A stretch of 59,799 bases of DNA, taken from the NCBI GenBank assembly GCA_003194525.1, contig NBIV01000378.1, positions 1 to 59,799 of the forward strand. The letters run 5' to 3'. Source of the DNA: Gracilariopsis chorda (taxonomy: Eukaryota > Rhodophyta > Florideophyceae > Gracilariales > Gracilariaceae). Within the stretch, counting starts at the first letter, position 1; each line of letters starts with the position of its first letter. The position numbers and the translations under genes were made by a program. The notes beneath the pieces were generated by a model. It searched no databases. It saw only the letters and a list, made by a program, of their open reading frames with translations, and had not been told where the DNA came from. Positions 1 through 43,874 of the stretch are shown here, piece by piece.

Positions 1-117
1 CTAAACAGCGCACCAAATGAAGGAGGGTTTCCTCCATTTTGCATTCAAATTTCGCGTTCATGGTTAACAACACCATACACTTCCTTCATTCTTGTGAACA
101 ACAAAACCCGGAAAACC

Positions 118-2106
118 TCATTCCATGTGTTTCCTCTTTGCTCCCCTGCGGGATCTAGACGACAACCTTCTCAATGCACTTGCATGGGTCACACCTCGCT
201 GCCGCACGTTGTTCACGACATCGTTTTGCTCCCCCTTTGTCCCACACACTGTAGAGCTCGTAACCTGTAACTTTTGATCTCCAGCTACGCCACCACCACC
301 ACCACCACCGCCGCCAAAACCACCATTCCCATCATCGCATTCCGCAGAAAAGCCCTCGCCCACTTCCCTCGCAACCCCTCTCACCGGCCTCAACTTCCTC
401 ACCGTCGAACTCCTCCGGCAAATGCCTCTTTCATCCCCACATTCAATCCGCGACTGCTTCCTGATCTCTTCCTCACGTATGTCTGCAATGTTGATAGGAA
501 AACGTAGCGCCTTCCCCCTGAGTGACTCAAAATAGTGATATGGCACGTCCTCCTCCAACCATCCCTGCTCCCCTTCAACACCCATCGTCCTTACTCTTCA
601 TCATCCCATTCACCTCGCGTTCCCCCACGCGTTTGGCGCCGCGTGCTACTCTCAAGCACCCACACTGGGTTCGCCCGGTACACTTCCACCATCGAGCCCA
701 CCCCGGGCAGTACGTCATATAAAGGCTCCAAAATCTTGCGACGTAATGGTGTATTCACCTGCATGTTTAGCACGCTCGGGATCGTGCCCACCATAAACCT
801 CTCATCCTCTTCGCTTTCCCCTAAAAACCCTCTAAACGTAGCCTTGTGGCTATTGCTTGCGTACCCCTCCCTCACAAAGTCGCTCTCACACCCATACTCA
901 AACAGCCGGTCAGCTCGTACAACACCACCGTCTCTCTTGTAGAAAACCACCTGCCCTTCTTCCGCTTGTTCAGCCGCTCTGCGCGCACAATATACCCAAA
1001 CATCCGAACCGCCCGCGTCGCATGGCTACCAATCCGAATTGCATACGTGCTTGGAACCACAATGCTAGTGCCCACCTTCATGTAGTACATCTTCACACAC
1101 CCCTTGTCCAGCGGATTCAGTGGAGCAACGTACTCAAAATACAAGCCGCTATTGTCAGCCTCTGCGCTGTAGCAGCGCACAATCTCCTCCGTAACAGTTA
1201 CGTGCACACCCGCTTCTTCCATAACCCTTCGCCGGTTGTTGTCGTGGTTGGGGCTGCGTTGTGGCGAGCTTGATGCTTGTGCTGCCCTTAGAATTGCCTT
1301 CACTGTCTACTAGCTGGCTTGGAAACAAGGTTAAAACGATGTACTCGCCATACTCCACCCACCTGCCCGCTTGCACACTATTGCTCTTCCATCCATTCCA
1401 AGCTTTACATCCACTTCCACTCACCGTGCTCGCCCTCGAGCAAAGTACACTGCGAGAGCCCTCGATGGACACCTCGTCCATGCGCTCGTTCAACACCCGA
1501 ATGAAGTCCACCATTCCTGTCACAATCGAACTTCCAAACAGAACTGACAATACACACTCGACACTAGCGGCACATTGTCGAATCTCGGGGTCTGATCGGT
1601 ATTCGCTCCATGCACGCCTTCCACCAGCGCCCGCTCCAGAACCTTCAGAATCACCCACTGTTGTGCGACCATCATCGAGTCCAGTAGCTTGCATCGTTCA
1701 CCCCTGGTCGCCCTCCTCTTCTCCAGCCGCGTTTAGCCTCGCTACCCCCGACCGGCCTACATAGTTATGCCGCAGCGCCACTGGGCATTGCTCGGCGCCG
1801 AGAAAGCTCTGCACATCCCCCAAACTTTTGTTATAACGCAAATGCTGTTCGATTTGTAAGTAATCTTCCGCCGAAAACGCGCTAATGGCCATCCAAAACC
1901 CGAAACCCCCCACCACCCCTTCGTAAGCCACCTTCCAAACCCGACTCTTTTGCGTTATCAGTTGTAAAGCCTTTAAATTCACTTAAAACCGCTTCATCCA
2001 CCAAAACCTCCACTGGAACGTCAACCGACCCCACCAACTGCATGCCTTCCAGTACGGAACACTCTTTCCCACGACCCATATTATGAAAACCCCTAAAACC
2101 CAACAC
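118..2106 (-). pseudogene. Gene A: unrecognised long gene of the large element, frame-broken
   Basis: I do not recognise this protein. Coding-like sequence runs leftward through about 660 codons in several frames. The 1982-1155 stretch is one frame interrupted by a TGA at 1698-1700; it shifts near 1290, returns to the same frame near 940, and shifts again near 590. Visible features are an acidic/Gly-rich part, a central basic stretch at about 950-1190, and a Gly run encoded by an ACC repeat at about 285-310 close to the C-terminus, followed by an Arg/Ser-rich tail. It is divergent to gene B, with 344 bp between the possible starts. The start could be near 2106 or 1982. No catalytic motif was found. 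The plus strand here stays C-rich although the gene is on the minus strand. Confidence 0.4.
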
Positions 2107-2450
2107 AACTCACTTTTAACGCTCTCTCAAAAACCCCTCATGTGTGCCGTGCAACGGGAGCAGGCGTACCAAGACGGGTACTAGTGCAAAGCTAAAACCG
2201 CAACAGTCGTCCTGTAACCTAAACAAACCTAAAAAAAGCTTGCTTCCAGCAGTAAATTTCGACCAGCAACATAAAACCCTAACCGTAACAGCCACACATA
2301 CACCTATTACAAGACACGCCTAAACGTGTATGGCGCCTTATAAGTACGTATGTACGCCCGCTACATTCCACGACGTTATGCTAAAACGCGCCTCCAAAAG
2401 ATAACCCACCGTTCAACCTACTACCGACCTCCAAAACAGAAAAGATCCCC
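2107..2450. promoter_or_regulatory. Divergent intergenic region between genes A and B
   Basis: This non-coding gap separates two divergently oriented genes and should hold both promoters. A TATA-like TTATAAG lies at 2338-2344, about 107 bp before the gene B ATG at 2451. Telomere-like motifs with CCCTAA or CCTAAA cores occur at about 2085-2100 and 2275-2285. Promoter activity is inferred from layout only. Confidence 0.35.
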
Positions 2451-2858
2451 ATGGATTTGTCTGAGCTTTCCTCCGAGATATGCAGGAGAATTCAAGCGGC
2501 GAAGTCATCTACTATAATTCTCGCCCCCGCAAACTTATTCGTTGGCCCATTGATAGGACGAAGCACATCACACACCCACCTTGTTGCACTCGCAAACCAG
2601 ATTGTTTGTGGCGTGGACTTTCATGTGTCGCAAGCTTTGCTCGTGGTGAAGGGCGACAGCGGCTTGGCCCTTGGAAAACTACTTGTTGTAGGTGGCAGTC
2701 ACTGACTTCCCGTCAGCGCTCACTTGAATCATATGCTTCTCATTCCATACCGGCTCATTAATCTAAGTGGGATGGTTACCGACAACATCATTCTGCAGCT
2801 CAAACGGTACAACGGCATCATTGCGCACCGTGTCGAGTCCTCAGAGCCCAGACCCTAA

Positions 2859-3701
2859 ATGTACACCATCATGGACCAAGTGCTCATGTACGGCAAACTA
2901 AAGGAATTTTGGACATCGCAGCAGATCAACCGCCGACAACAGACGCGCAGAACACGCGCAAGACCGCAGTCCATGACCCAAAACAAGCTGCTACGTCTGT
3001 ATAAATTGCTTCAAACGTCGGCAGGTATTAACAGTCGCCATGCAATACAACTCTTAGACTTCACCTTCAAACCCAATTTCATCCGCGGGTACATGTCTGG
3101 GGCGGACAAATCGCTTCAAGCAGACGTGCTTCCTGATCTGTGCTATGTAGAAAAACACGCGAGAACCCGATTCTCTCGCGCCTCTCTTAAAACCGTTCGT
3201 AACTGGTCTCTTCGCAGTATCCAGAAAACTGTCACGTACTGGAATTATAAATCCCAATGCAGCGGCGCTAGTAACTTTGTGTGTCACTTCTCTGACGATT
3301 ATGATCCATTTCCCGGTGCCGACGAAGAGGATCCCGACAAAAATGGCTCACAACGTTCTAAACGCGACAGTCCTCTCGCCAAGCATATTTCGGAGCACCC
3401 TGCCGCCAAGAAACGGAAAACAACGATAACTCCGTCCGCCACAACATACTTGAGAAGACAACAAAAGCAGCCAGGTAAGGACGAAACAAACGATGAAATG
3501 CAGCCGGGGCGGCAACAACAACCGCTCCCCACAATACCAAGGCGTAAATTGTCACTGCATCCAACACCAAAACCCCATCCCCCTCGCCAAAAGCCCAGCG
3601 GTCGACGCGTTCTAGTCAAACGCCTAAGCGCGCTAAATTCGCATGTTCACCACCCTCAGGCTGGGATGGATACGTCAACTGGGATCTGCAAGGTAATATG
3701 A
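2859..3701 (+). CDS. Gene B N-terminal segment, basic linker protein
   Basis: This is the longest open piece of the N-terminal half (280 codons). I recognise no domain. The first 150 residues look globular; the rest is Lys/Arg/Gln/Pro-rich with KKRK-like basic clusters that could act as a nuclear localisation signal. It continues upstream in the same frame past a single TAA, so its apparent ATG at 2859 is probably an internal Met rather than the true start. Downstream the coding frame shifts into the protease-containing part. Confidence 0.45.
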   Translation: MYTIMDQVLMYGKLKEFWTSQQINRRQQTRRTRARPQSMTQNKLLRLYKLLQTSAGINSRHAIQLLDFTFKPNFIRGYMSGADKSLQADVLPDLCYVEKHARTRFSRASLKTVRNWSLRSIQKTVTYWNYKSQCSGASNFVCHFSDDYDPFPGADEEDPDKNGSQRSKRDSPLAKHISEHPAAKKRKTTITPSATTYLRRQQKQPGKDETNDEMQPGRQQQPLPTIPRRKLSLHPTPKPHPPRQKPSGRRVLVKRLSALNSHVHHPQAGMDTSTGICKVI

Positions 3702-4192
3702 CCTTTCACACAACCTGCAATGACGTTTGGAGAACGAGCACGTCGCAAAGACCGACGTTCAGGCCCAGCAACATGCAGTACCCTACAGCCAGGAGGAAAG
3801 AATTTATATAGTTAACATGGTAAGAGAACGAGTTCTTTCAGGCCCCTACAACCCTAGTATCGCCGAAAATGGCACCAAGCACGACGACAACCAAAAACTA
3901 AATCAACAACCACAATCCATCCAACAGAGTTTTCAATCTTGCGTCGGTTTTTTCACAGGTTTGCGCAGAGTTGCACAACAACACAACCAACAAGGACCTA
4001 AACAGCAGTCGCAAGCCCAACCACCTGCACAAGCCAGTACTGGCTGCCACAGGAGGCTTCCTTCAAACAACTCTCTCGCTATCCGAGCAAGAGGTGCGTT
4101 CTATACAAGAGTGCAGCATGGCTAGTGACCAAACTATAATGTTCACGTTGTCCTTTCTCAACAGCTAGACTGAGCCATCATTAAAGAAAGAA

Positions 4193-4900
4193 ATGTACAT
4201 TCTGGACCCTCAGCTAGTGGCTGGATGGTGGGATACCGTCTTACGCGAGGGCAGTTCAACGTTGAATCGTCTCAGCGCCGAATTCAAAGAATTTCGCAAC
4301 ACATCAACAAAACGCAAATCCAATCCCCTTGACAAAATCTGGACATCGAAACTGTCCATTGTGATGTTGTGTAGGCACAATCATTGGACGCTAGTTCCGT
4401 TTGCCAACCTGCCACTTCTTGTTGAAAGGCTGGAGCGTGCCCCTCATATGTTAAAACGATCGCACAAACAACAATTGAAACAATGCAGAGCCACCATGTT
4501 CTGTGTCGATAGCATGTCGGCCAACAAATCTCCTCATGCTCCGCTCTCTGCAAACATCGTTCATTACCTAACCGCGTCGTACCCAGGACAGAACGTCGTA
4601 TCCTTCCGCCTCCTATCGTCACTCGTCACCGCTCACCACCTTCGACGCAGTATCCAGCAAGACCTCGAGTGTGGATTCTTCACAACCTACCACATCGAGA
4701 TCATTTCTAAACAAATCTCAACGTTTTTAAACGGTTCCGAAATGGACGTGAAAAAGCACTTCAACCTATGGTACACCAAATTCCCCTTCACCCACTACGC
4801 CGATTGCATTTGGCACCGTATGGAAGCTCTCATGCACACATCCGAGGAAAAGGGACAGGCACCTGTACCATGCAACATGTTCACTGCCTCGGCTCAATAG
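4193..4900 (+). CDS. Ulp1/C48-like cysteine protease domain (gene B)
   Basis: The segment carries the ordered triad of a C48 peptidase. His is in NHWTLVPF (about residue 64), Asp is in MFCVDSM (about 103), and the catalytic Cys is in QQDLECGFF (about 161), preceded by the Gln-containing stretch expected for the oxyanion site. The Cys-Gly step matches the DCG-type motif of SUMO proteases. The expected N-terminal strand-helix part lies just upstream in the same frame, beyond a TAG at 4166, so the ATG at 4193 truncates the domain. The family cleaves SUMO-like tags or precursors in the nucleus; in transposons its target is usually unknown. All three catalytic residues are intact even though the surrounding gene is interrupted. 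Confidence 0.72.
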   Translation: MYILDPQLVAGWWDTVLREGSSTLNRLSAEFKEFRNTSTKRKSNPLDKIWTSKLSIVMLCRHNHWTLVPFANLPLLVERLERAPHMLKRSHKQQLKQCRATMFCVDSMSANKSPHAPLSANIVHYLTASYPGQNVVSFRLLSSLVTAHHLRRSIQQDLECGFFTTYHIEIISKQISTFLNGSEMDVKKHFNLWYTKFPFTHYADCIWHRMEALMHTSEEKGQAPVPCNMFTASAQ

Positions 4901-5044
4901 CCCCTGAAGCAACCCACCGAAACGACCCATCCAAGTGTCCCACATACAAAAACCCCTATAACTCCAGAAGCTTTCAACGCCCAGCACACCGTACACCAGC
5001 GAGGTGAACCCCTAAAACCAAAAACCCCTTCAAAGCGAGATGGT

Positions 5045-5599
5045 TTGCATGACGGGAAGCGACAACTTCAACGTAACCGTACACAGCTCACACAGCACGT
5101 CCCCACATCCAATATTAACAACAAAACACTACGCACCATCCTTCAAGACCCTGTGGTACTCAACGCGGTGACAGACGCTGTCAAAGGGAGCGACTTTGCA
5201 GGGGTTAAAACGGCCCTCACTACCATTTTGCTTCCTCGTATTCGGAGAGCTCTGCACAAGCCCAATGATAGCCACCTTTCTACTGCTACTAACGTTGTTC
5301 AATCGCACCAACCGCCACAACTGCTTCCACAACAACACGCTCCTTCTCCTGTACCCTACCGCAAAGAAAACCCAATCAACATACTTCCCCATCGTATATC
5401 TACAACCTCGGCACATGCAACGGATGGTAATATGTCATTGCTCATTCGGGAAGGAAATGATCTCGTGAAGCAAACAATGGACGAAGACCTACGGAGCGAA
5501 TGGGAGGCGTGTATGCTGAAAGCACGAGCACTTGTTGCCAGGATGAAAAAAATACAACAGCGTAGAACTGTTGGGGGGCAGGCCCATGCCCCACACTAA
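5045..5599 (+). CDS. Gene B C-terminal segment, unrecognised
   Basis: This 184-codon piece is in the same frame as the protease segment and separated from it only by a TAG at 4898 and open sequence. It holds a helical region, a Pro/Gln/His-rich linker and a terminal helix rich in Met, Lys and Arg. No domain is recognised. The TAA at its end is followed by further stops, so it is probably the true end of gene B. Confidence 0.4.
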   Translation: MHDGKRQLQRNRTQLTQHVPTSNINNKTLRTILQDPVVLNAVTDAVKGSDFAGVKTALTTILLPRIRRALHKPNDSHLSTATNVVQSHQPPQLLPQQHAPSPVPYRKENPINILPHRISTTSAHATDGNMSLLIREGNDLVKQTMDEDLRSEWEACMLKARALVARMKKIQQRRTVGGQAHAPH

Positions 5600-6180: not shown

Positions 6181-6720
6181 ATCCGTGAATAAGCGACCGC
6201 TGCACGCTTGTAAGACGACAATTTTTACTATCGCACATGCCCGCACTGGTTGCTCGATCACTGGCGCTTCAAAACATTACAATTTTTTAGACTGCAGTGG
6301 TCGAGCGACCACCGCTGCACGCTTGTAAGACGACTATTTTTACTATCGCACATGCCCGCGCTGGTTGCTCGATCACTGGCGCTTCAAAACATTACAATTT
6401 TTTAGACTGCAGTGGTCGAGCGACCACCGCTGCAATGTACGACAGGACTTTTTCCTGTCGCACATGCGCGCAGTGGTCGCTCTACCACTGGCGCTCCAAA
6501 AAAAATACAATTTTTTGCTTGCAGTGGTCGAGCGACCACCGCCACCATGTACGACAGGACTTTTTCCTGTAGTACATTCGCGCTGTGGTTGCTCGACCAC
6601 TGGCGCTCCCAAAAATTACAATTTTTTAGCCTGCAGTGGTCGAGCGACCACCGCCGCCATGTACGAAGGGACGTTTTCCTGTCGTACATGCGCACTGTGG
6701 TGGCCCTCAAACCACTGAAA
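6181..6720. repeat. Palindromic 112-bp tandem array 1
   Basis: The core GTGGTCGAGCGACCAC starts at 6297, 6412, 6524 and 6636, giving spacings of 115, 112 and 112 bp. Each standard unit contains that core, a central hairpin with arms GTACGACAGG and CCTGTCGTAC, the reverse complement GTGGTCGCTCGACCAC, and an AT palindrome of the type AAAAAATTACAATTTTTT. The two leftmost units carry a variant centre without the GTACGACAGG hairpin. The array lies between the 3' ends of genes B and C. Short ORFs crossing it in all frames are artefacts of the repeat. Confidence 0.9.
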
Positions 6721-6951: not shown

Positions 6952-7690
6952 TCATTCCTCCAGTTCTAAAATCACTCTCTCCCCCGTTCCTTCCCCCACA
7001 TCACTCCCCGCATGCAGTTCCTCCTCGCCGCTTCCTGATTCCATCTCTATATCCACGACGTCATTCATTCCGTCCTCATTCTCCACATCATCACCCGCCC
7101 CATAAAGTCGCGTATCGTCCTCCACAAACTGAGGTTTGAACCCTTTCTCGCGATGCACCGCATCTGGCATATGGTACCCATCCGTTATCATGTACATGTG
7201 ATACCGGAAAATCATGTCCTTCATAGTGCTGTCCAAACCCCCAGCCCTCGCGTGGAACACGTTCCCACGTCCCACAAGAATGGAGTACGGCGATATTTGA
7301 TACTTGCGGACGACCATTCCTCGCGAAAACTGCTTCAAATTCCTCCAGTCCGTCAGCACAATCTTGTGGCTCCCTTCACAAATCTATAATGGGAATGAAA
7401 ACTGCCCTGAAACCATCAAAAAGTAGCCCGTGTTCGCCTCATCCCTTCTCTCGTCCATAGTCAGCCCACGGAAGTCGGTGTGCAGCGCTTGACGCATACA
7501 ATTCCGAGACGATGCCAACACTCGTCCCCCAGTACGCGGCACGTACATCTTCCTTGTACCCAAATCTCAGTTGTTTGCCAACCACAACGCTGCGGCTACT
7601 TGCCCCAACCGAGCATCCAGAAGGGCTCGCTTCTTCACCACCCAATGGGTGCCCCCTCGCGTTCCATCGCATGCACAATTCCCTTGCGCG
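6952..7690 (-). CDS. 2OG-Fe(II) dioxygenase catalytic part (PhyH-like), gene C C-terminus
   Basis: Reading the minus strand leftward from 7690 in one frame, with two stops (TGA 7567, TAG 7384), the order of motifs is diagnostic. ALHTDFRG gives the HxD iron ligands (His codon 7482-7480, Asp 7476-7474). EGSHK (about 7376-7362) matches the GSHK turn typical of phytanoyl-CoA-dioxygenase-like enzymes. VFHARAGG gives the distal His (7254-7252), and FRYHMYM gives the 2OG-binding Arg (7206-7204). Such enzymes oxidise a substrate using Fe(II), O2 and 2-oxoglutarate. The substrate here is unknown. The coexistence with a DNA methyltransferase makes a nucleic-acid or chromatin substrate possible, but PhyH-like enzymes usually act on small molecules. 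The C-terminal 60 residues are acidic. Confidence 0.65.
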
Positions 7691-8255
7691 TCGTTATAAG
7701 GCGCCCTTCCCCTTTCGACCTTTTCGTACCGTCCACGCTTTTTCCAGTATTGATGATTGCGTTCCAACACGTCCGGTTCGATTCCACTCGCAAATCCGGT
7801 TGCTCACTGTAGTTGGTAACGAAGGACTCCAGCATCTTCCCTGACACATCTTCATCGTCCCCTACCCTAAACGGACAATCCAAATCAATTGCAAACCCGG
7901 GAAGAACGCAAAAGCCTTTTTCTTTCACCTCCTGCCGTTTTTCCGCGAAAAACTGTACACCCAAAGAGTCCATATAGCGTACTTCGGTTTCTAAAGGCTG
8001 ACCACCGCCCGAACCTACACCGCCAGCGCTCTTGGTCCCACTTTGCTGTAGACCTTCAAGAACGCCTATGATCCCCCAACCCAAATCATCGTAGCAATGC
8101 TTTGCGGCATGCCAGTACACCGTGTGGTGAACACACTGCAGTTCGGCTGCCGTGAGCACCTCGGCGCGATGTCCAGGCGGAATGTGAACCGCCTTCAGCC
8201 ACGGGAGTACATGTTGAATGCAATTATCGTTCGTACGCCAAAGACCAGGAGGCAT
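7635..8255 (-). CDS. Gene C segment leading into the dioxygenase domain
   Basis: The segment continues the middle frame after the TGA at 8268. It contains KEKGFCVLPGF, which resembles the start of PhyH-like dioxygenase domains (a Gly-Phe-hydrophobic-Pro-Gly strand). It ends where the frame shifts near 7650-7690; the remaining dioxygenase motifs are in the other frame between 7680 and 7150. Confidence 0.5.
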   Translation of the reverse strand: MPPGLWRTNDNCIQHVLPWLKAVHIPPGHRAEVLTAAELQCVHHTVYWHAAKHCYDDLGWGIIGVLEGLQQSGTKSAGGVGSGGGQPLETEVRYMDSLGVQFFAEKRQEVKEKGFCVLPGFAIDLDCPFRVGDDEDVSGKMLESFVTNYSEQPDLRVESNRTCWNAIINTGKSVDGTKRSKGEGRLITTRKGIVHAMEREGAPIGW

Positions 8256-8267
8256 AACGGCATAATT

Positions 8268-9677
8268 TCACCAACGAGGATACGCATCTTCCGATTCGTA
8301 CAGCTCGCTCCGAGTGAGCATGCTGGGCCACTCATCCGGATTTGCGTCGTCCAATAACCGTTCCACAACATCCTCTTCACCGCCGTCCGCTCGAAACGCG
8401 TCGTCACCATCGCTACCATCTTCCTCGTCCTCGGTGCCTTCTTCTTCGTTCACGATCCCCACACCACGAATGTTGTTGTCCCTGAACAACATACGCCATC
8501 CTTCAGTGTGCAAACTTTGAAGGAAACGTACGGTTGCAGGGAGCAACCGACCGCCTCTTCTACCCGCCTTCCGAATAGGACCGCGGCGCAAAGTGCTGCG
8601 GGCATCCACAGAAGATGCAGTAGTCATCACGGTCCTTACGATACGGCGGTGCCGGAGGCTTCGTCGTACGCCTCTCAAGCTACTCGAACCGCCTCTTGAA
8701 TTAACACTATATGCCGGTGCTGAACTTCGTGGCGTTCCACTCACCATTTCAACCTCCCCGTCCTCCCCAGCTTGTTCGACATCTTGAACTGCAATATTCA
8801 TAGGCTCGGCCTCTTGCTGGACGGATTCAGCGGCTTCTGAGAGCTCTACATCGCCCTGGCCTTCACCTTCAGCATTAACGCACAACTCGCGCATCCACTT
8901 CCCCAGCTTACCAGTGAACGCGCTCACAGCGCGCCCAATGGTTACTTCACTCAAATCCATACGCGGCACCTTGACGAACCTGTTGACTTGTTCAACGCCG
9001 AAAGCCTCGACTGTGGTCGTTCCGTTTGCAACCGGGGACATCGTTATTTCCTGTCGTAGAAATTCCTCCACATCAATACTGAGGGCGCGGGCCCACAACT
9101 TAATTTCGCGGCTGAACGCAACCACTCGGCTGTAAAAGTACGACCGCACAAGCTCAAATCCACCCCGAATGTCGGGGCTGTTCGGTCCCGTATAAAACTT
9201 GAGGCATTCCGTCGCGAATGAGAAGTCACGAACATCCAGTTTCAGTAGCATATCACTGGAAACGTGTGTGAGCCCGATGGCGGGCCGCTCCTCACAAAAC
9301 TTCTTAAACACCGGTAGAAGTGCAGGCACTTGCGCTAGTTTAAGACCCACATCAGCAAAAAGACGAAGCTGACGTGTGTCTAACTTTCCGATCAACTCGC
9401 TCGACTTCAGCACACCCGCCAATTGCGAAGGGGTAGTTTCTTCCACCCCCACTCCGCGTTCCACTTGTACGGTTCCTACAATACTGACTGTGGAGTGTAC
9501 GCGATCTGCAAAGCGCATCTTCAGCACCGCTGACGACGTATCATTCAATAATGTTCCAAGACGAAGAATCTCACTAGGTGTGAGGTCCTTACCATCTCGC
9601 CTCTTCCACATCAACATGCGCAATGCTTGCGTGATCTGCCGCCACAACTCCAATTTAGCCTGCCGACGTCGATGCAT
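8268..9677 (-). CDS. Gene C middle segment, helical protein of unknown function
   Basis: This is the longest uninterrupted part of gene C (469 codons). It starts with a basic stretch, followed by a long helical region of about 250 residues with regular Leu/Val/Phe spacing, then an acidic linker, an Arg-rich patch and a very acidic segment (about residues 420-460). The frame is continuous with 9714-9974 upstream and 7635-8255 downstream, interrupted only by TGA codons. No transposase or polymerase motif is visible. Confidence 0.5.
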   Translation of the reverse strand: MHRRRQAKLELWRQITQALRMLMWKRRDGKDLTPSEILRLGTLLNDTSSAVLKMRFADRVHSTVSIVGTVQVERGVGVEETTPSQLAGVLKSSELIGKLDTRQLRLFADVGLKLAQVPALLPVFKKFCEERPAIGLTHVSSDMLLKLDVRDFSFATECLKFYTGPNSPDIRGGFELVRSYFYSRVVAFSREIKLWARALSIDVEEFLRQEITMSPVANGTTTVEAFGVEQVNRFVKVPRMDLSEVTIGRAVSAFTGKLGKWMRELCVNAEGEGQGDVELSEAAESVQQEAEPMNIAVQDVEQAGEDGEVEMVSGTPRSSAPAYSVNSRGGSSSLRGVRRSLRHRRIVRTVMTTASSVDARSTLRRGPIRKAGRRGGRLLPATVRFLQSLHTEGWRMLFRDNNIRGVGIVNEEEGTEDEEDGSDGDDAFRADGGEEDVVERLLDDANPDEWPSMLTRSELYESEDAYPRW

Positions 9678-9995
9678 AATTCGATGGTGCCTGCCATATA
9701 TGAGTTCAACACGTCAATCAATACGCCCGTTCTCCACAAATCCGTCCTCCAAAGGACGCCCGTTTGTGTTCACGGTAACACTCATCATGCCAGACGAATA
9801 CAGCAAACCCTTCCGATCAAACTGCTCTTCCAGTTGCTGCAAATAATTCTCACTCACACCACGCGGACTGAAGTGAGGATCATCAATGAGCTCTAACTCA
9901 ATTATATATTCCTGTACTTCATAATCACTGAAGTTGATACTCTCGTACACAATGGAGGTGCCTATATCCACCAACTGTTCGACATCACCTTCGCT

Positions 9996-11404: not shown

Positions 11405-12140
11405 ATGTACAATGGGACTATATCCCGTCGTACATGCGCACAGTGGTCGCTCGACCCTTGGCGCTCCATAAACATTACAAGTGTTTAGCCTGCAATGGTC
11501 GAGCGACCACCGTCGCCATGTAGCACAGTACTTTTTCCTGTCGTACATGGCGGCGGTGGTCACTCGACCACTGGCGCTTCAAAAAATTACAGTTTTTTAG
11601 ACTGCAGTGGTCGAGCGACCACGGCCGCCATGTACGACAGGAAAAATTCCTGTCGTACATTCGCGCAGTGGTCGCTCGACCACTGGGGCTCCAAAAAATT
11701 ACAATTTTTTAGCCTGCAGTGGTCGAGCGACCACCACTGCCATGTACGACAGGAAAAAGTCCTGTCGTACATGCGCGCAGTGGTCTCTCGACCACTGGCG
11801 CTCCACACAATTACAATTTTTTAGCCTGCAGTGGTCGAGCGACCACCACCACCATGTAGGACAGGAAAAAGTTCTGTCGTACATGCGCGCAGTGGTCGCT
11901 CGAACACTGGCGCTTCAAGAAATTACAATTTTTTAGCATGCAGTGGTCGAGCGACCACCACCGCCATGTACGACAGGAAAAGTTCCTTTCGTACATTCGC
12001 GCAGTGGTCGCTCGAACACTGCTGTCCCAAAACCTTTACAGTTTTTTAGCCCCCAATGGTGGAGCGACCGCCACCGCCATGTACGACAGGACAGTTACCT
12101 GCGGTACATAGGCGCATTGGTTGCTCGACCAATAGCGGCC
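11405..12140. repeat. Palindromic 112-bp tandem array 2
   Basis: Six consecutive units have the core starting at about 11495, 11607, 11719, 11831, 11943 and 12055, an exact 112-bp period. Units share the same four palindromic blocks as array 1. Outer units are more diverged (for example GGTGGAGCGACCG at about 12059). The array sits between the divergent genes C and D. Confidence 0.92.
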
Positions 12141-12445: not shown

Positions 12446-12453
12446 TATATAAA
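12446..12453 (+). promoter_or_regulatory. TATA box of gene D
   Basis: TATATAAA lies 58 bp upstream of the ATG at 12511, which would put transcription start about 30 bp before the start codon. It is embedded in the small palindrome ACGTATATAAACGT. The stretch from array 2 to this site (12141-12445) holds no gene. Confidence 0.6.
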
Positions 12454-12510
12454 CGTGAAGATCGTCGTACCAGGTGCTCATTCAACCGGCTGCGAAACGC
12501 AATTTTCATA

Positions 12511-15500: not shown

Positions 15501-15633
15501 CCTCGAGCCTTACACTCTGATAACAAACAGAGCTTCCCGCCGTATAGCACGTGGAGAGGAACTCTTCATCGACTACGGTACTTCTTACGATTGGACCCCT
15601 AAAAACCCTCTCTCTAACGGTGAAACCTCCTAA
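12511..15633 (+). pseudogene. Gene D: DNA methyltransferase-SET fusion gene with three in-frame stops
   Basis: The same frame is open from the ATG at 12511 to 15633 (1,041 codons) apart from TGA at 13045-13047, TAG at 13834-13836 and TAA at 13891-13893. Sequence on both sides of each stop reads as ordinary protein, and no base shift is needed. Order of parts: an unrecognised N-terminal region of about 380 residues, a Ser/Pro-rich linker ending near 13830, a beta-class DNA methyltransferase and a C-terminal SET domain. The three stops may be real nonsense mutations, making this a dead copy. The 3' half remains a clean open frame from 13894. Confidence 0.65.
13894..15633 (+). CDS. Beta-class DNA methyltransferase fused to SET domain
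   Basis: Residues 40-75 hold motif IV, TDPPY (residues 43-47), the catalytic motif of N6-adenine and N4-cytosine methyltransferases. A variable target-recognition part follows, then the SAM-binding motif VLDLFGGTFST (about 240-250) and a GCEKDE strand end. The order IV then I is that of the beta class, common in bacteria and phages and rare in eukaryotes. From about residue 395 a SET domain follows: GVGVFAGCTF, GGLINDPRY in place of the usual NHS motif, and EELFIDYGTSY near the end. SET domains methylate protein lysines, usually on histones. Fusion would let one protein mark both DNA and chromatin. The first listed codon is GTG; the true start is probably upstream (12511). Confidence 0.82.
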   Translation: MVQEHMMKHYVMYCCGFDDLMDVHNTLRAPDPVPCFQAQLVLTDPPYAIRSMRGRPNSDYDTLTIADMKGVTITMRRFLRAGGHFVIFCSLEQFPRWHKLLNSIDRREADCTVAPMFRVDHCPLQMIRAPGNNTVSPGRASGELIPITQYAVHGVKTGLTRAQEDKKVNYTNFSYVPSTVTAYKNVIDRVPAVDVNESLKGVRYTDSGDVKREAVRPEQKPIRLHMELIARFSQPGDTVLDLFGGTFSTLLACMSFKKGEARRFVGCEKDEACFHHARHHALKHFSRLIAENVSSVTVSQGLVDAAHAVHNYFKGYLRPSRTWAAVQNFPQYQTLPEHIVLYCASTWRAQDFVITGLHMDLSQWPEKYQGLFNLMSVNELRAHEASTLRLIVAESTIVHTSAGVGVFAGCTFAKDETVCQFYGTLVYHDMSQRTEIHKTYGSGLMGVTPQDFRTYCMQVDPRAPDFNSLIGLNKDKKIPSVWISPAPFCVGGLINDPRYLQLDPDAQPVRDGFKPKRTANIYVDCSAISVLKTRKHLEPYTLITNRASRRIARGEELFIDYGTSYDWTPKNPLSNGETS

Positions 15634-16153
15634 ACAAATTCCTCAAACCTGCTCCTTTGCATGTGCGTAAAAACGTATTACGTAATCCTGTGCCGTATTG
15701 TGGTGTGCACCGGCTCATTGCCACTGTGCGCATGCGCATGTGTATCACCCCACACACAGCTCACCTCCCACCTTTCCAAAAAGCCAATTACAGTTTGTGT
15801 ATGACGTCATGTGTGAACCTAAACGCACGCCCACATATCTCCAACCACGCCAGCCCCGTTTTCTCTCTGCACCTCATGGTGTACATGTTTGGCGAGTATT
15901 AGTCCCATAGCCTATGCGAGCTCATACTTCCGACGCTGTATGAGCGTGCCGAAAAACCCACATTGCGGCGCCTTTGCGCAAGCCCCATCACAATCATCAC
16001 TACAAAAAGCCCACCAACCTTCCCCTAGTAAACCAATTCCCATATCTCCCTCTACCCCCACAAACGCCTACAACTCAACCGCACGCCAAAACCCATCTCT
16101 ATCTCTCCCTCTGCCTTTCTTCTTATCTCCTTCCCTTCTGCGAGCATACCAAT
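15634..16153 (+). other. Gap between genes D and E with pyrimidine-rich leader
   Basis: No gene seen. The last 130 bp before the gene E ATG at 16154 are strongly C/T-rich on the plus strand, as in some 5' leaders. No clear TATA box was found, so E might be transcribed from a TATA-less promoter or together with D. Confidence 0.35.
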
Positions 16154-16804
16154 ATGGACAACCTCACTTTGCATAACCACTCCATAGGACTGGACTCTAT
16201 CCAGCCTGGTCCGGCTCCAAAAGCGAACACACCACAATCCAACCGTACCAACCCCAACGCTACCGCCATAATCTCAACATCAGCCGTGCAGATCGCGGAT
16301 AAAGAACGAAATGTATCTCCCTCCTTCACCAACCTGCTCGAAACCGTTATCAACCTTGCCATTCACTCCATCGGCTTCTTCTTCCTGTGCATCAACTGCG
16401 AATCTGGCAACCCCTCGCGACGTGCAGTGCGTTATCATCTCCGAAAGGCACACTTCCTCCCCCAGGAAGAGGCTGGCAAAGCATCCGACATCATGTGGTC
16501 CCGCAGAACCGAAATGCTTAAGCAGAACAACCTCCCCCCGCTATGTAATTCGTATGGTCCGGAAGCGCCGAGCCAAAACGTGGCTGTTCTGCGTCCACTA
16601 GCCGGGCTGCAAATATTGAACGGCTACCGCTGCGCGCAGTGCACCTCCTGCTATATTGACCTTCAGCGTCTCCCTGATCACATCACAAACACAAATTCCA
16701 ATCACGCGCATTCGGTTTCTTGGCTAATAGAACAAACATCGAAGCAAAGCACCATAATAGTGCAAACCAAATTCGACGCCCTTGTTGTCTGCTGTTTGCG
16801 GTGA
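16154..16804 (+). CDS. OrsD-like zinc-finger N-terminus of gene E
   Basis: The segment shows CINC followed by RYHLRKAH, a C2H2-type finger, and after a spacer GYRCAQCTSC with a distal LPDHI and NSNHAH, a second Cys/His cluster. The pairing and the following VQTKF match the OrsD-like domain attached to fungal RecQ helicases. The frame breaks near 16785, where the neighbouring frame takes over with CCLLFAV. Confidence 0.6.
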   Translation: MDNLTLHNHSIGLDSIQPGPAPKANTPQSNRTNPNATAIISTSAVQIADKERNVSPSFTNLLETVINLAIHSIGFFFLCINCESGNPSRRAVRYHLRKAHFLPQEEAGKASDIMWSRRTEMLKQNNLPPLCNSYGPEAPSQNVAVLRPLAGLQILNGYRCAQCTSCYIDLQRLPDHITNTNSNHAHSVSWLIEQTSKQSTIIVQTKFDALVVCCLR

Positions 16805-19695
16805 GCTCCGCCTCCCCCGTTGGAACCATAATCAAACACCTTCAACTGCCTATCCGAGCGGTCAACATTCTGCAGCAACCCCTTCTACCCCAAAACCTCC
16901 AGTCCCAACCCCCGGCACCGATACTGCCACAGCCCATGCAACCCCCCAACCCGAACACAAACTCCAGACACCGACAAATACTGCAACCGGAAAACAAAAC
17001 CGAAGAAGCAGTGAACAACTTCTTCAAAAGCTTAAGCACCTCACATATCCAAACCAATCATCTGCATCTGCAACCACAAGCACAACAAAAACCCAACTTC
17101 TTCATTGCGTGTACCAAGCTAGACATCATACTCCAGTCTGTTTCTGTCAGCCTCAAGGACGCAACCATACTCACAAATTCAACATGTGCAAGCGACATCG
17201 ATGCAATGGCTGCTATGACCAACGATGTTCTCATGTACCTCACCAAAGCTCCATTTCTCATGTGCACCATTCTGCCATTTTTTCTCCAAAATCTCAACCA
17301 ACGCTCCGACAGTAACTTCCGCAGCGTCTCGCAGGACACGATCAAACGCTACGCCTCCGATATTGCCCGTCTCTTGCTATTCACAAAAAAAGGCCATGAA
17401 CATGACGTCAACCTAGTTTCACAAGCGCAAAACACTACGGCCTACCTCCACAGCGTTAACCTAAAACCTAATATCCTACACAGTGCGCTCACTGCCCAGC
17501 TTCTGCAGATGCTCCCCCCGTATGCATCTACGCATACAATCACTGTGGGCAACTTCATTGCGGCCGCTTCTGTGCTGGTTCACAACGCCGAAGATGCCAT
17601 CAACCAACATGACGAGCGCTACCGCTATGTTAGTGCCGACGAGCTCACCCATCTGCTCGCCGCTCTCCAATACGGAGTCGCAGCATGCGACATCCATCAC
17701 GTGCATAACCTCACCAAGCAGCAAGGAAAAACCTCTCATCAGCTTACTTCCGAGATGCAGCAAGTGGAATTGTCTGTTGACGTGCAATCAAACAATGCTT
17801 TTTCTTTCTTCTGCAACACTCTCAGCTTTGCTATGAACATCGCCACTAAAGAAAGCATCAACGTATCGTTCTTGGACTGCGATATGCACCCGCACTGCGG
17901 CATCGTTCGCGACATTCACTTAGGTCTGCCCGCGCTTGGCTCTATCGTCAAAAAGCTCCATGCCAAAATTGAAGACATCATCATTGATGATCTGCTATTG
18001 GGATCTCCCTTCCCCCCTGCATTCTCAAGCCACATCCAAGCACTAAAAGACCAACCATCAAACAAAAACCCCGGCTTCTCCTTCCTCCAACACCCGCACA
18101 ATGGCTCCTTTCTACACACCTGCTTGCAGTATGTACTGAAATGCCTAAAGAACCCATCCGGAAACACATCGCACAATTCGCTCCAAGCTCCCTCTCTACC
18201 ACCCAACGATACCCCCACAGTTCTTATTGCTGGTATCCACTTCTACACATCTGCTCTCACCCGCTGGCTCGCATGCGCACAAAAAGTCCAGGAGCGCCTC
18301 CTCGTCGTTCTCCACTTTGCCTCCGGCTCCCCAGCTCGCGGAACCGAGATTGAGTCGTATCGTCTGCACAACGATTTGTTCCACCAACGCTGCCTCATAC
18401 TTCTCGACTCTCAACCCGTTCTCATCTCGCGTTACCTCAAAACTCAAAACGCTAAAGGAGGCGCTCGCCCAATTCCACGCTTCCCAGATCCAAAGACAGA
18501 TGAACTCCTTCTCACTCACCTGACGCTCATTCGCCCGCTCGAAACCTGGTTCGTTTCGGCTATACACGGCAAAACCCATAAACAGGCACACTGGCGTATG
18601 TTGTTCTCAACCCACGGCATGCCCCTGGACGCTCAAAACATTCGCCGAATCATCAGTTCCACTCTGTTTGACGCTGGGTTTAGACTCACCTTTGCTGACT
18701 ACCGCAACTTCACAGTAGGAATCACCGCTCTCATTTCCTCCACAGCCGTAAACGACATTGACAACACGCTCTCCAAGGCCATCCTGGAAGAATTCTTCTG
18801 CACCGCGCACAATCAAGCTGGGCACATGGCACACACTGCGGAGCTCATGTACGCAGGCACCCCACACGACGTCAGTGGAATGCGACACACTGAACTCAGC
18901 AAGTACAAAGAATGGTCCACCAAATGGCACTCACTACTGAATTTGAGCAAACACGCCGCAAAGAAGCGCTCTTGCCGTGACACTACTCAACACCAAAGCA
19001 CCACCCATCCCGCCAAGCGCCCCATTCCCGCATCACAACCCATCTCACCTCTGCACCGCCCTTACAAACCGCCGAACGACGTCTTTGCACCCCTGGCCCG
19101 CTCATCCTCCCTAGTCCACAGCCGCCCAACCCCATCCGAGCTCCCAAGAGGTGGTGCATCGCTCCATACACCCCCACCGCTCAATTACGAACACAGACTC
19201 GGCACGTTTCTCAACGCACTCCGACAAATGCTTGCCAATGGCTCCTCAGTGTTTAAATCACCTACGCAGTTTACCGTTACGGTGGCCGTGTTTGAAAAGC
19301 GGGGAAACATGCTTATGCTCACTCCGACCGCCTCCGGAAAAACATTGTCTGTACTGCTCCCGATGTACATGGAGAAGGGCTCATATTCCTCCATCATTAT
19401 CGTTCCTCTCAAAGCCCTCCTTACGGAGTACGAACAACGTGCGGCAGCCTTTCAGCTTCAGAGCAGCACATCCCCGCACACCAATCGCGGCACGGAAACA
19501 TTTGCGGGTGTCTATATATTGTCAGTCGAAGTGCTTGACTCCGCCTCTTTCAACACCCTGCTTCAACGCTTGTTGCACAAACAAAAACTGGCCCTCATCG
19601 TGGTGGATGAAGTGCATTTATTTCTGTTATGGCAACACTTTCGCCCATCCCTTGCACACATCCACAATGCGCTTTCCATGGTACCCCCCTATACT
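16785..19695 (+). CDS. Recombinase-like region and helicase N-terminal lobe of gene E
   Basis: After a Pro/Gln-rich linker comes a helical region. Motifs then follow in the order of a tyrosine recombinase: SPARGTEI (first Arg), a Lys/Gly turn in YLKTQNAKGG, DYRNFTVGI (second Arg) and QAGHMAHTAELMYAG (His and possible nucleophile Tyr). A disordered linker leads to the helicase first lobe: motif I PTASGKT (19327 onward), motif Ia VPLKALL and motif II VVDEVH (about 19602), followed by WQHFRPSL as in RecQ. The frame shifts near 19695, just before motif III LLSAT. The recombinase assignment is by pattern only. Confidence 0.65.
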
Positions 19696-19881
19696 CCGTG
19701 TACTGCTCAGTGCCACCGTGCCGCCCCGCGATCGTCCACTCCTGCTATCACAGCTCTCAATACCAACAGCTTACCTGTGTACCACTTCCACCACCCGTAA
19801 CAATATCCGCTTCTCCTTGTACGACGCTTCCCCAAGCGTAAAAGCCCTCGAATTCGTACTGCCGCAGGTACCTATCAAAGC

Positions 19882-20781
19882 TTGTTCCAACATCTGCTTC
19901 AGACAGGCGTCCCGTACTTCCAACAACAAGTCTCAACATTGCTCATCGCAAGTATTGAATCCTTGGTCCGCATCATCCTATTCACACTCACACGCTCAGC
20001 TACAGAACAACTACACCGCGTCATTCAACAATACGTACAAGGAACATTATATCACCAGGTCTCTTCCACATCTCTCATTTGCCTCTTCTATCATGCCGGC
20101 TTATCCGCCCACGAAAAGGATAAAACACCCGACGACTGGCTCCATCGCTTCTCCGTTCCGCCATCCGCCGCCGTAACCCAAACAGTTATTTTCATGACTT
20201 GCACTTCCGCCTTTGGAACAGGACTCGACACTCCAAACGTTCGGCTAGTGCTAATTTTTGGAGGATGTGCCAGTCTGGCCGGCCTTGCCCAGCAGGCCGG
20301 CAGAGCGGGTCGTGACGGCCGAAATGCGCGCTGCATCACCATGTACTCAAAGCCCTACTTCAAAATGATACAAGATCTTCTTTGCTCTACAAACAACCAA
20401 AACCCCAACGACATCGCCCGTTCTTATGTCGACTCGCTTGCCACAGACCGCTGGAACCAAGTGAAGACGTGGATGGAACTGACGCTCGTGTGCCGCCGTA
20501 ACGCCCTTTACGCCCACATTGATGGAACCGAACCAGGCGTTTGCTTACTCACCGAAGACGCTGTGAGCTGTGACATTTGTGAAAAAAACTCCGCAACTTC
20601 AAACCCGTTTCCCACTGCACCTACCCAAAACACATCTACAACAAAAGCACCGTCACAGCCTGCCAAACCCACACCCTCCCCTCCAAATCAGACACCTATA
20701 GCCTCCATAGGTACCGCCTCACTTGACATGTCACCCTTCATCCTACCGGAGCCAAGCACAAACATTCAGATGCAGCCATAA
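19882..20781 (+). CDS. RecQ helicase C-terminal lobe of gene E
   Basis: This segment carries motif IV (RIILFTLTRSATEQL), motif V (TSAFGTGLDTPNVRLV) and motif VI (QQAGRAGRDG), in the spacing of RecQ-family DNA helicases that unwind DNA 3' to 5' using ATP. Motif III lies upstream in a different frame (about 19700-19720). After the helicase there is a CDIC pair and a Thr/Pro/Ser-rich stretch ending in the TAA at 20779. Confidence 0.75.
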   Translation: MFQHLLQTGVPYFQQQVSTLLIASIESLVRIILFTLTRSATEQLHRVIQQYVQGTLYHQVSSTSLICLFYHAGLSAHEKDKTPDDWLHRFSVPPSAAVTQTVIFMTCTSAFGTGLDTPNVRLVLIFGGCASLAGLAQQAGRAGRDGRNARCITMYSKPYFKMIQDLLCSTNNQNPNDIARSYVDSLATDRWNQVKTWMELTLVCRRNALYAHIDGTEPGVCLLTEDAVSCDICEKNSATSNPFPTAPTQNTSTTKAPSQPAKPTPSPPNQTPIASIGTASLDMSPFILPEPSTNIQMQP

Positions 20782-20985
20782 ACTGGTTCTCTCCCATCGC
20801 TACAACCACTCCCTTCGGCGTCCGCAGCCGTCAATTCAGTCAAACGCCTAAACAACAACCTCCTCTCGTCTTCGCCGCCCTTCATCACTTCTTTCTCTTT
20901 TTCAGAGCGGCACACCAGCCCGCTTCAGTCCAACATTTCCGCTTCCTTTCTTTATCGCATCAACTCCAATCCCCTCGCTCGTATT

Positions 20986-21429
20986 GTGCGCCACATTCAG
21001 GAGATAGCACGCCGTCTCCACTCTTTATGCGTTCCGTGTCTTATCCAAGCTCAAACTCCCGTAACCAAGGAAAACCATCTATGCTCCTATGCATCCATTC
21101 GATGCTATCGATGCTTCTTGGACTCCCGCAACGCGGTTGATTGCCCACACAACAAGAACCCACCCATGAACTGCTACAAGTGCCATATGGAATACTGCAA
21201 GGGACTCAAGACCCATTCCGATCCCAAAAAATATGGTACTCGGGCAGGTGAGTTTATTCCACTGCGCCAGATTGCATGGCTTCTCTGGCGCAAAGACCCA
21301 GACATGCGCAACACCATTGCACTCAACCTCTTTGACGAAGAACGCAACTCTCAGTTCAACAATATTGCTACGAGCAGTACATCCGAATGCGCTAAAGTGC
21401 AGCAACAGGACCACCTTTTCCACTACTAG
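20986..21429 (+). CDS. Cys/His-rich C-terminal tail of gene E
   Basis: In the same frame as the helicase lobe, open from 20782 onward. It contains CVPC, CYRC, CPH and CYKCHMEYC clusters, likely zinc-binding. The ORF with GTG at 20986 is only the part after arbitrary start choice; coding-like sequence covers the whole 20782-21429 stretch. Similar Cys-rich tails follow the helicase in OrsD/RecQ proteins. Confidence 0.5.
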   Translation: MRHIQEIARRLHSLCVPCLIQAQTPVTKENHLCSYASIRCYRCFLDSRNAVDCPHNKNPPMNCYKCHMEYCKGLKTHSDPKKYGTRAGEFIPLRQIAWLLWRKDPDMRNTIALNLFDEERNSQFNNIATSSTSECAKVQQQDHLFHY

Positions 21430-21684
21430 TTTACGACAACAGACCGCAGGGCCGTTCCCAACCTTATACGCGTCAAAACTTGATACAAATCTACAACTGA
21501 TCTTATATAGCTTTGCATGACACCATGTTGATAACAATAAATGTGTGGCCACAAGCTTTACGTGTTTCTATTCGTTACGTATGAAAACCCCCAAACACCC
21601 TCATACGTTGAGAAACGCGCATGTGCGACCGAAACGAAAAACACCTTCTGCTTCCTTCTACTGTATTATTATCTGTGTTATGCA

Positions 21685-21835
21685 TGTACGACAGGAAAAA
21701 GTCCTGTCGTACATTCATAGAGTGGTCGCTCGACCACTACCCTCCAAAAAATTACAATTTTTTTGCTGCAGTGGTCGAGCGACCACTACGTTCATGTACG
21801 ACAGGAAAACTTCCTGACGTACATCGCCGCGGAGG
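21685..21835. repeat. Palindromic array 3 (about 1.5 units)
   Basis: A GTACGACAGG/CCTGTCGTAC hairpin at 21686-21712, GTGGTCGCTCGACCAC at 21722, the AT palindrome, GTGGTCGAGCGACCAC at 21771, and a second hairpin at 21797-21823 with one arm mismatch. Same family as arrays 1 and 2. It lies 250 bp past the end of gene E. Confidence 0.9.
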
Positions 21836-22029
21836 TCGAGCAACCCTAAAACACCCCAAAGTCTCCGAGTTCGGTATTCCCATAGCCACGCCACTCTCTT
21901 TTAAACATACGAAAGCACTATTTCCTAATGCAAACAGCCTACGGCGGCGCACAACAAAGCATTCCAATTAAAGACCGCTTTAGGACAAAGCGTGCTCTCC
22001 ATACCACTGCACACTTCTGCAGCACACAA

Positions 22030-23060
22030 CGCCCACCCCCTAAAGTCGAAAAACCCCCTTCACAATAGCACATGCTGTGCAAGACAATTCTGTTTCTGTT
22101 AACATTCTGCAACGCCTAAAACCTCTAAAACCCATAAAAAACACTAATAAAATAAAACATAGGAATCTAAGTGCAACCCCCCAAAATGTCTAGAAGTAAA
22201 ACCCCTAATACCAATACACCCCCTAGAAAACGCCTAGACCCGATCGCAAAAACGTCCATAAGAACAACACCCCTAAACAAAAATTGAATAGAACTTGCAT
22301 TTCTTAAGTGTACGGCTAATCATATTTTTTTAAAACATTCAAACTCCCCTACCCGTAACACAAATCACCAAAACACACTAAAACGAAAAATAACGTTTAC
22401 AAAACCCCTAAGACGTTCTAGTCACATATTTATTCGTGTAGAAAACTAGGCCATATACACGATTTTCTAGATCTTGCAATTTTCATTATGCGAAGTCCAA
22501 CTTTTAAGACTCTGACACATCCATAATCATGAAAAGTGCAGCTTAGTAGAATGGAAGCGGCTAAAACGTTGCCGAGCGAACAAATATACAACCCTAACAC
22601 CCTGTAGCGCTACACCTTTAAAACTACATCCCAGCTCCCAAAAACCCCTAATACGGAAAACGTTCTTATCAGTATTCACCCCCCAACGGTACCTCGATAT
22701 AAAATTTTGTACGTCTCCTGTTTTTCTCCAACTGCACCTAAAAACAACTAAACCCTTTGAAAATTGCCATATCCCTAAAATAAAATAACCTAGAACGTTT
22801 CCTAATGCTAGTATAATCCCCTAAACACCCTCACATCCAAAAAACCTAAACTTCAATATGAAGGTTCTTACATTACCCTAAAATCTTTCTTAATGCTAAG
22901 GGCATCAAAGTATAAACCCCTAATTGTTAATACCAAGGCTCTTCATTCTTTCCCGGAGGCTCCCTAGTAAAAGTGCGCTTTGTCTCATTTGTTCCATATG
23001 CGTGAACATGGCCGCAATGCTTCGTTTGGGCAAATATGACCAGTACCACAAACCCCTAAA
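22030..23060 (+). repeat. AT-rich non-coding zone with telomere-like CCCCTAAA motifs
   Basis: No gene seen. Variants of AAACCCCTAA recur many times in the same orientation, for example near 22200, 22268, 22404, 22640, 22815, 22917 and 23051. They are interspersed with AT-rich sequence, not in perfect tandem. The same motif, same orientation, appears more thinly across 1-6 kb. No TTTAGGGG counterpart was noticed on this strand in 1-24 kb. A subtelomeric origin is inferred. Confidence 0.5.
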
Positions 23061-23112
23061 CATTTGTCAAACATTTAAAGAAACGCATTCCTTGGTTTCC
23101 ACAATTCTCCTA

Positions 23113-23577
23113 AAAACCAACCGCTTTCGCCCTTTTGCACAATATCCGTTAACATGCCCGCATTGCATGATTTTAGCAAATGTTGCAAAAACCAAGCGCC
23201 TTTGCAGTTTTGTACAATGTGCAAAAAAAATCCACGCTTTGCTTGGTCTCACCTAAATGGCCTAAAACCAAACGCTTTCGCATATTTCTACAATGTGCGA
23301 AAAAACCCCCGCATTGCTAGGTTGCGTGAATGTGCCCAAAACCAAGCGCTTTCGATCATTCACACAATGTGCGTAAACATGCCCGAAATGTGTTCTTTGG
23401 GGAAATATGTCCAAAACCAAGCGCTTTCGTACATTTGTACAATGTGCAAAATGTTCACGTGTTGCTTGGTTTCTGCAAGGCAGTCCAAAACCAAGCGCTT
23501 TCCCACATTCTACAAATGAGCCAAAAAACATCCCACGTGCTTGGTCTGCGAAAAGCTGGCTAAAACCAAGCGCATGG
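23113..23577. repeat. 75-bp minisatellite
   Basis: The motif AAAACCAAGCGCTTTCG or a close variant starts at 23113, 23188, 23264, 23338, 23413, 23487 and 23562, a spacing of 74-76 bp. Each unit also contains an ACAATGTGC-like block and a GCTTGGT block that is partly the reverse complement of the first motif. ORFs over it are by-products of the repeat. Confidence 0.88.
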
Positions 23578-24060
23578 AGCAAGCGACCAAACCTTGCCAA
23601 ACCAGCTCAGAAACCATCCTTCCAAAGCCTCCAACACGCACATATGCGCGCGCGCGCACTTTCAGGACCTTCCTACAAGGTTCTGACAAATCATGGCTAA
23701 AACCAAGCGCTGCGGCACCCTGTATTTGCGCGCTTAACCTTCAAAAATGGGGCCAATCACGCTACTTACACGACATGCACGCGGCACGTGCCATATGTGC
23801 CTAAAACCAAGCGCAAACGGCCATGTCAAATCCTAATTTTTTGATGTATGCGCTTGGTTTTTAGCCTGACCCAAGCAATCTATAATATTTAGCCAGGTTT
23901 TTTGAGATCAAGCGTTTGTTTCATAACCGGCGCACAGCGCTTCGTCATCCATTGAAGGCATGAAAAACGTATATACAGCGATTCCACCACTCGTTCAACG
24001 TTTTGCGTCAAAACCAAGCGCTTGCGGACACCCCTCAAAACCAAGCGCAAACCCAAACTT
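23578..24060. repeat. Dispersed AAAACCAAGCGC motifs
   Basis: Single copies of the minisatellite core continue at about 23698, 23804, 24010 and 24036 without regular spacing, with a reverse-oriented GCGCTTGGTTTT at about 23850. The zone also has a CGCGCGCGC run near 23647. No gene seen. Confidence 0.6.
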
Positions 24061-43767: not shown

Positions 43768-43874
43768 GGTTTTGGGCCTCTTTGTACGCGGAATGTTTAC
43801 GTAGAATGCTGGACAACGCTCTTGTTCAACTGTCTAAGCTATGTGTTCCTTTACTTTAGGCCGACAACTACCAC

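Follow-up and report, generated by a model that had tools for sequence, protein, structure and literature searches.

Do the genes crowded into the left part of a red-algal contig belong to one mobile element and, if so, how does that element move? The window analysed here is the whole of contig C378 (NBIV01000378.1, 59,799 nucleotides) of the 91.3 Mb eukaryotic genome of Gracilariopsis chorda; other C-numbers denote contigs of the same genome. An initial annotation, made from the sequence of this stretch, had proposed that five decayed genes form a single unit of about 22 kb: an Ulp1 protease, a 2-oxoglutarate (2OG) dioxygenase (here gene X), a DNA methyltransferase fused to a SET domain (MT-SET), an OrsD/recombinase-like/RecQ protein and one gene without assignment. 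We find that the genes recur together in many copies. These end at the same precise point on the right, are cut short on the left and form arrays that mostly run one way. On balance, we lean towards reading window 1-24081 as a decayed copy of a giant element that spreads when its right end becomes attached to a chromosome end that has broken or eroded.

The genes recur as a unit

Genome searches with MT-SET, gene X, Ulp1 and OrsD/RecQ found the genes adjacent to one another at similar spacing. The neighbourhood count used 73 MT-SET loci, 33 of which fall into the two subfamilies nearest to the window copy, near (79-100% identity, n=18) and middle (50-69%, n=15); the far loci (n=40) are 38-43% identical. 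Across the near and middle subfamilies, gene X stands head-to-head with MT-SET at 21/33 loci and RecQ lies downstream at 25/33, while a control on the wrong side and strand gave 0/146 neighbours. The association is far above chance, and the proposal that the five genes form one unit is borne out.

Broken down by subfamily, gene X, RecQ and Ulp1 (the last counted up to 15 kb upstream) accompany 8, 15 and 7 of the near loci, 13, 10 and 0 of the middle loci, and 7, 0 and 0 of the far loci. Ulp1 was seen at 7 of the 18 near loci and at none of the 15 middle or 40 far loci. Such absences are soft, because only the best candidates were scored: 75/350, 89/163, 44/156 and 33/33 for the MT-SET, gene X, RecQ and Ulp1 searches, in the order in which the counts were given. 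The missing RecQ beside far loci may reflect this detection limit. The count itself drew on 73 of 76 methyltransferase rows (three fragments of listed loci being excluded). For gene X, RecQ and Ulp1 it used 82 of 94, 36 of 66 and 30 of 32 rows, respectively, and the further fragments left out lie nearly all at loci already counted.

Upstream of window base 1, other copies carry a further gene, which we call gene c. It occurs at 14 more loci (70-75% identity), and by hand inspection gene X adjoins it on the opposite strand at 13 of them. Given these neighbours and the co-occurrence counts, gene c, gene X, MT-SET and RecQ appear to form the core of the unit. Ulp1, together with minus-strand frames of unknown type, looks like a stretch belonging to the near subfamily. 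A giant mobile unit with a chromatin-modifying gene set is supported. Among titles and the starts of abstracts in the open-licence literature, we found no matching described family and no MT-SET fusion or OrsD-recombinase-RecQ element.

The element comprises the following features in the window:

1-24081, plus strand: giant element; right (3') end at 24080/24081, left end beyond the contig start
121-1697, minus strand: open frames 121-597, 594-1025 and 1158-1697, perhaps one broken gene
2859-5596, plus strand: Ulp1/C48-like SUMO protease gene, broken; catalytic part 4169-4897
6222-6701, no strand: palindromic 112-base tandem array 1
7114-10955, minus strand: gene X, broken, from MAKNAHSF (10955) to KPQFVEDD (7114); C-terminal 2OG-Fe(II) oxygenase-type motifs at 7186-7494
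11423-12146, no strand: palindromic 112-base tandem array 2, in the gap where gene X and MT-SET diverge
12379-15633, plus strand: MT-SET gene, a beta-class DNA amino-methyltransferase fused to a SET domain
15944-21426, plus strand: OrsD / tyrosine-recombinase-like (18313-18858) / RecQ helicase protein, spread over several frames
21633-21845, no strand: palindromic repeat pair 3, 3' of the RecQ gene
21900-24081, plus strand: 3' tail with 75-base repeats at 23113-23573 and scattered CCTAAA motifs; truncation zone of many copies
24058-24080, plus strand: conserved right terminus CTTACNTGCAACACTACTATAAG, the terminal 23-mer

The decay noted initially is seen in every gene. Stops or frame changes are present in Ulp1, gene X, OrsD/RecQ and the minus-strand gene at 121-1697, and the MT-SET frame has stops at residues 223, 486 and 505 of its N-terminal part, while the last 579 residues are open. 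The 121-1697 region is retained at 85-95% identity in 8 other copies, and a Pfam search of its minus-strand frames gave no match.

The palindromic arrays had been taken for the borders of the element. They sit between genes, inside it, and this internal position rules them out as borders. At C17:96811-97666, gene X has been lost and two of the arrays are fused into one; the distance from Ulp1 to MT-SET is similarly short in C152, C140 and C117. Two Rfam microRNA-precursor matches at 21700-21808, under the gathering scores and lying on the palindromic repeat, are in all likelihood chance hits on a perfect hairpin.

A fixed right end and a variable left side

Homology between short and long copies stops at 24079-24088, which places the right end at 24080/24081. 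A search for the terminal 23-mer with up to 2 mismatches gave 73 occurrences, spread over 40 contigs, and 0 for the reversed control. At the 15 right junctions read besides that of the window, the flanks differ each time. Those of C133 and C148 nevertheless contain a similar stretch, placed at unequal distances from the terminus, and the flanks of C252, C70, C59 and C220 are other copies of the element. By eye, and without a statistical test, no target motif or short repeat was shared by these 15 junctions.

These junctions bear on a non-mobile explanation, in which the copies are blocks of subtelomeric sequence that carry telomere-linked helicases and have spread as chromosome ends recombined with one another. 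The pairing of RecQ with OrsD and the position near telomeres on several contigs would suit such blocks. One precise right end with differing flanks at 15 junctions, however, is unexpected from block duplication, and we regard this explanation as very improbable.

The left end lies beyond the contig. To the left of base 1, C70 and C96 continue unbroken for at least 2 kb, and C117, C140 and C355 resume after a gap of ~850 bases. The extent of about 22 kb thus had misplaced borders: the element begins left of base 1, where it has more genes, and reaches 24081. Copies are left-truncated at many points, and we read 14 left junctions of such copies. Five adjoin (CCCCTAAAAA)n repeats (C60, C306, C505, C58 and C117, the last degenerate and ~10 bases off), and four follow directly on another copy's right end (C70, C59, C220 and C252), with C59 and C220 truncated at almost identical positions, 23714 and 23713.

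A fixed 3' end, many short 3' fragments and variable left truncation would also be expected of a LINE- or Penelope-type retroelement copied from its 3' end and capped after attachment, its reverse transcriptase (RT) being encoded in the left part beyond the contig or supplied by another element. Terminons share that anatomy, as section 8 of PMC6431247 describes them. Against this, no RT was found in the open frames tested, which were not all frames and exclude the left part outside the contig; an Rfam search of the window copy detected no ribozyme at its 3' end. A genome RT search was swamped by other retroelements (best 150 of 3380 scored) and speaks neither way. We consider a retroelement of this type unlikely.

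Chromosome ends and one-way arrays

The (CCCCTAAAAA)n repeat is telomeric. It stands at contig starts on the plus strand (C95, C159, C182, C355 and C379) and at contig ends on the minus strand (C60, C140 and C306), with 330 genome matches compared to 1 in the control, some of them also inside contigs. Of the contigs that hold a telomere array as well as a right end, 6 have the array on the element's 5' side and in the same strand, and 1 (C140) has it on the other side; this count covered 19 contigs, among the telomere matches listed of the 330.

Copies also follow one another in a single direction. In 15 of the 17 contigs with more than one right end, all point one way, the mixed ones being C232 and C117. 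C435:8156-26107 has nine right termini in 18 kb, all on the plus strand, with groups spaced 225 and 229 bases, and C140 has five right ends at ~9.82 kb spacing. Tandem units of ~9.82 kb occur at C140:125783-175799 and in C888; they match only the last 1 kb of the 3' tail.

The MT-SET fusion and its second carrier

Pfam places N6_N4_Mtase (PF01555, 56 bits) and SET (PF00856, 27.7 bits against a cut-off of 22.4) in one frame at 13894-15633. In the methylase, DPPY at 14023-14034 precedes the S-adenosylmethionine (SAM)-binding motif, and the domain has the marks of the beta class, fold included; the fold search covered the methylase part, not the SET part. The conserved Tyr of the SET domain (15574-15576) is invariant in 18 aligned rows. 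A sister subfamily (L021, L022, L024, L025, L026, L028, L029 and L032) has lost DPPY and kept most SAM-binding and SET residues.

In a tree built without P0004, P0031, P0032, P0034 and P0036-P0041, the near and middle subfamilies are sister groups, and C187 and the metagenomic P0001 branch next. Between subfamilies, nonsynonymous divergence (dN) is 0.36 and synonymous divergence (dS) is saturated; within them, omega (dN/dS) is ~0.5-0.8 in 10 of 11 pairs and 2.3 in one very similar pair. Judged by these comparisons, the fusion seems to have been under selection in the past. No close relative was found in our scan of viral contigs. In profile scans of viral and prokaryote contigs (best 80 of 208 plus best 80 of 139), 0/160 aligned past query residue 332, so none of these relatives reaches the SET part.

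MT-SET also travels on a different kind of element. C187:80159-90097 (L040) is a separate 9.94 kb transposon with terminal inverted repeats (TIRs; ends CGTCGGTGTT...) and an MT-SET gene 43% identical to that of the window. Its left end occurs in C27 and its right end in C14, on other flanks. When the two C187 flanks are joined (160 bases), the resulting sequence exists without the insertion at 6 other places; C328 (158 bases, 93%) and C87 (159, 91%) come closest, and these are empty sites in a repeated Gypsy-type element. A 2-base target duplication would fit, though it is unproven. Directly before the MT-SET gene of this transposon lies an 86-base perfect palindrome.

Other genes of the element and the window

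On the minus strand, gene X carries the 2OG-type motifs HTD (7465-7494), FHARAG (7240-7266) and RYHMY (7186-7206), and its relative P0054 is 66% identical over 250 residues. It had no Pfam match to E 10 and none among PDB sequences, and PHROGs gave one weak unrelated match. The dioxygenase call therefore keeps its HxD...H...R-type motif and gains no profile support; on that motif, gene X is a putative 2OG-type oxygenase. One motif had suggested a ParB-like protein, and comparison with a ParB protein gave no support.

The Ulp1 call fared similarly. The motifs NHWTL, CVDS and DLECGFF, which we take to hold the catalytic His, Asp and Cys, are in frame at 4379-4681, and the C48 profile (PF02902) scored 15.6 bits, under its cut-off of 20.7; related frames occur elsewhere in the genome. 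For the 3'-most gene, DEAD and Helicase_C score above cut-off and OrsD (PF12013) falls short at 23.6 bits against 26.6, all within 15944-20778; the nearest PDB sequence is RECQ5. The recombinase part is called by motif: residues R360, K394, R482, H522 and Y531 (numbering of window:17260-19077) are common to the window protein and P0042, in a spacing that resembles that of tyrosine recombinases such as Cre.

Beyond the element, window 32546-37596 holds a Copia-type long terminal repeat (LTR) retroelement whose two 275-base LTRs are 99% identical, which marks a young insertion; it has three overlapping frames. An LTR pair (300 bases, 89%) at 43382-48145 flanks gag-pre-integrase and retroviral SH3-like frames and is an older Copia-type element. 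A GH45-like open frame lies at 38980-40026 on the minus strand, a weak match (21.2 bits against a cut-off of 27).

How the element might spread

From the fixed right end, the truncated left sides and the arrays, we infer attachment at chromosome ends and the enzyme behind it. The right end would be joined to a broken or eroded chromosome end, and the shortened left side would then be capped by telomere repeats. The OrsD / tyrosine-recombinase-like / RecQ protein, encoded by the 3'-most gene, is the likely mover or helper; alternatively, an RT encoded in the left part beyond the contig could be the mover. MT-SET may mark the element's own DNA, probably at N6-adenine given its DPPY motif, together with nearby histones, and gene X and Ulp1 may remove marks or SUMO. 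The element could thereby tune both the silencing to which it is subject and the chromatin at the ends of chromosomes.

Several observations weigh against this reading. Telomere repeats are absent from 9 of the 14 left junctions, and no telomere repeat follows the terminus at any of the 16 right junctions read, unlike in Terminons. In C140 the elements point the other way, with a telomere 42-81 kb off their 3' side, and in C355, which is outside the array-side count, the 3' side faces the telomere. The open frames tested, which are part of all frames and do not include the left part beyond the contig, contained no RT. The within-subfamily omega values indicate that present copies are mostly decaying. 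As for the mover, profile searches with the recombinase-like part gave no match, and its AlphaFold model was unusable (predicted confidence, pLDDT, 33); by its motif, the middle of the OrsD/RecQ protein is a putative tyrosine recombinase.

At five of the 14 left junctions the neighbour is other DNA (C133, C152, C17, C49 and a second one in C220), which also counts against chromosome-end joining and would favour a tyrosine-recombinase DNA element of Crypton or Starship type. Such an element would integrate as a circle and gather near chromosome ends, where later breakage and telomere healing would cut its left side. The recombinase-type R, K, R, H and Y residues common to P0042 agree with this, as do the C48 proteases found beside recombinases in some oomycete Cryptons, according to PMC3212892. 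However, circle integration would not lead one to expect many short fragments of the 3' side alone, nor copies joined head-to-tail to one another, and the right junctions, compared by eye and without statistics, share no target motif or short repeat. We think this origin doubtful.

Returning to chromosome-end joining, it is tempting to speculate further. This could be a new, RT-free class of elements, in which the recombinase-RecQ protein attaches the fixed end to broken chromosome ends and builds one-way arrays, and the element makes its own chromatin there: a single chain would write DNA and histone methylation, an oxygenase and a SUMO protease would undo them, and in the sister subfamily the methylase would be a catalytically dead, reader-like domain beside a retained SET. 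We hold this fuller version to be possible but doubtful. If the main reading is right, DNA methylation and histone methylation have been united by mobile elements in a single polypeptide that acts at chromosome ends, which would offer a natural test of whether the DNA mark and the histone mark need joint writing. The case also shows a bacterial-type methylase that elements of two different kinds have multiplied within a eukaryote.

Comparison with known systems

A parallel to the fusion itself is bdelloid N4CMT, which PMC8885841 describes as a PF01555 methylase fused to a chromodomain. MT-SET differs in having DPPY not SPPY, in carrying SET not a chromodomain, and in lying on mobile elements in dozens of copies.

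Cryptons with a C48 protease (CryptonF and CryptonS of oomycetes) likewise combine a tyrosine-recombinase-like protein and Ulp1 in one element. Here, however, the element is at least 26 kb, the recombinase part is fused between OrsD and RecQ, and copies are left-truncated. Cryptons are further marked by terminal direct repeats of 4-6 bases and by having no TIR. In Starships, the captain recombinase is the first gene at the 5' end, whereas the only recombinase-like protein seen here is the 3'-most gene, the left part lying beyond the contig.

A 2OG-type oxygenase on a mobile element recalls the fungal DNA transposons that carry TET/JBP, one gene on unrelated transposon groups; PMC12730594 names KDZ, EnSpm, Plavaka, Helitron and others. 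Unlike there, gene X is not recognised as TET/JBP, and its conserved partner is MT-SET. HarbingerS and MuDR are DDE transposons. In Phytophthora they carry SET, a histone-methylase-type gene on a transposon as here; the sentence on them in PMC12730594 mentions no DNA methylase, unlike the arrangement here.

The element also resembles Terminons, the giant telomeric Penelope-like elements of bdelloid rotifers, which are also giant, 5'-truncated by telomere repeats in part of their copies, arrayed head-to-tail and loaded with many accessory genes. Section 8 of PMC6431247 describes their 3' end as fixed, their 5' side as variable and in part capped by telomere repeats, and their arrays as running one way. 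Truncation by telomere repeats was seen here at 5/14 left junctions and one-way head-to-tail order on 15/17 contigs, with the joins themselves read in C70, C59, C220 and C252. The differences are that no RT has been seen so far, that no hammerhead ribozyme was found (no Rfam ribozyme in the window copy), that the right end joins ordinary DNA, with 3' reverse-complement telomere repeats absent at 16 junctions, and that the gene set is another. Because the element works like a Terminon but lacks one defining feature and shows no RT in the frames tested, we do not file it as one. If our reading is right, elements in which no reverse transcriptase is visible would also live as Terminons do.

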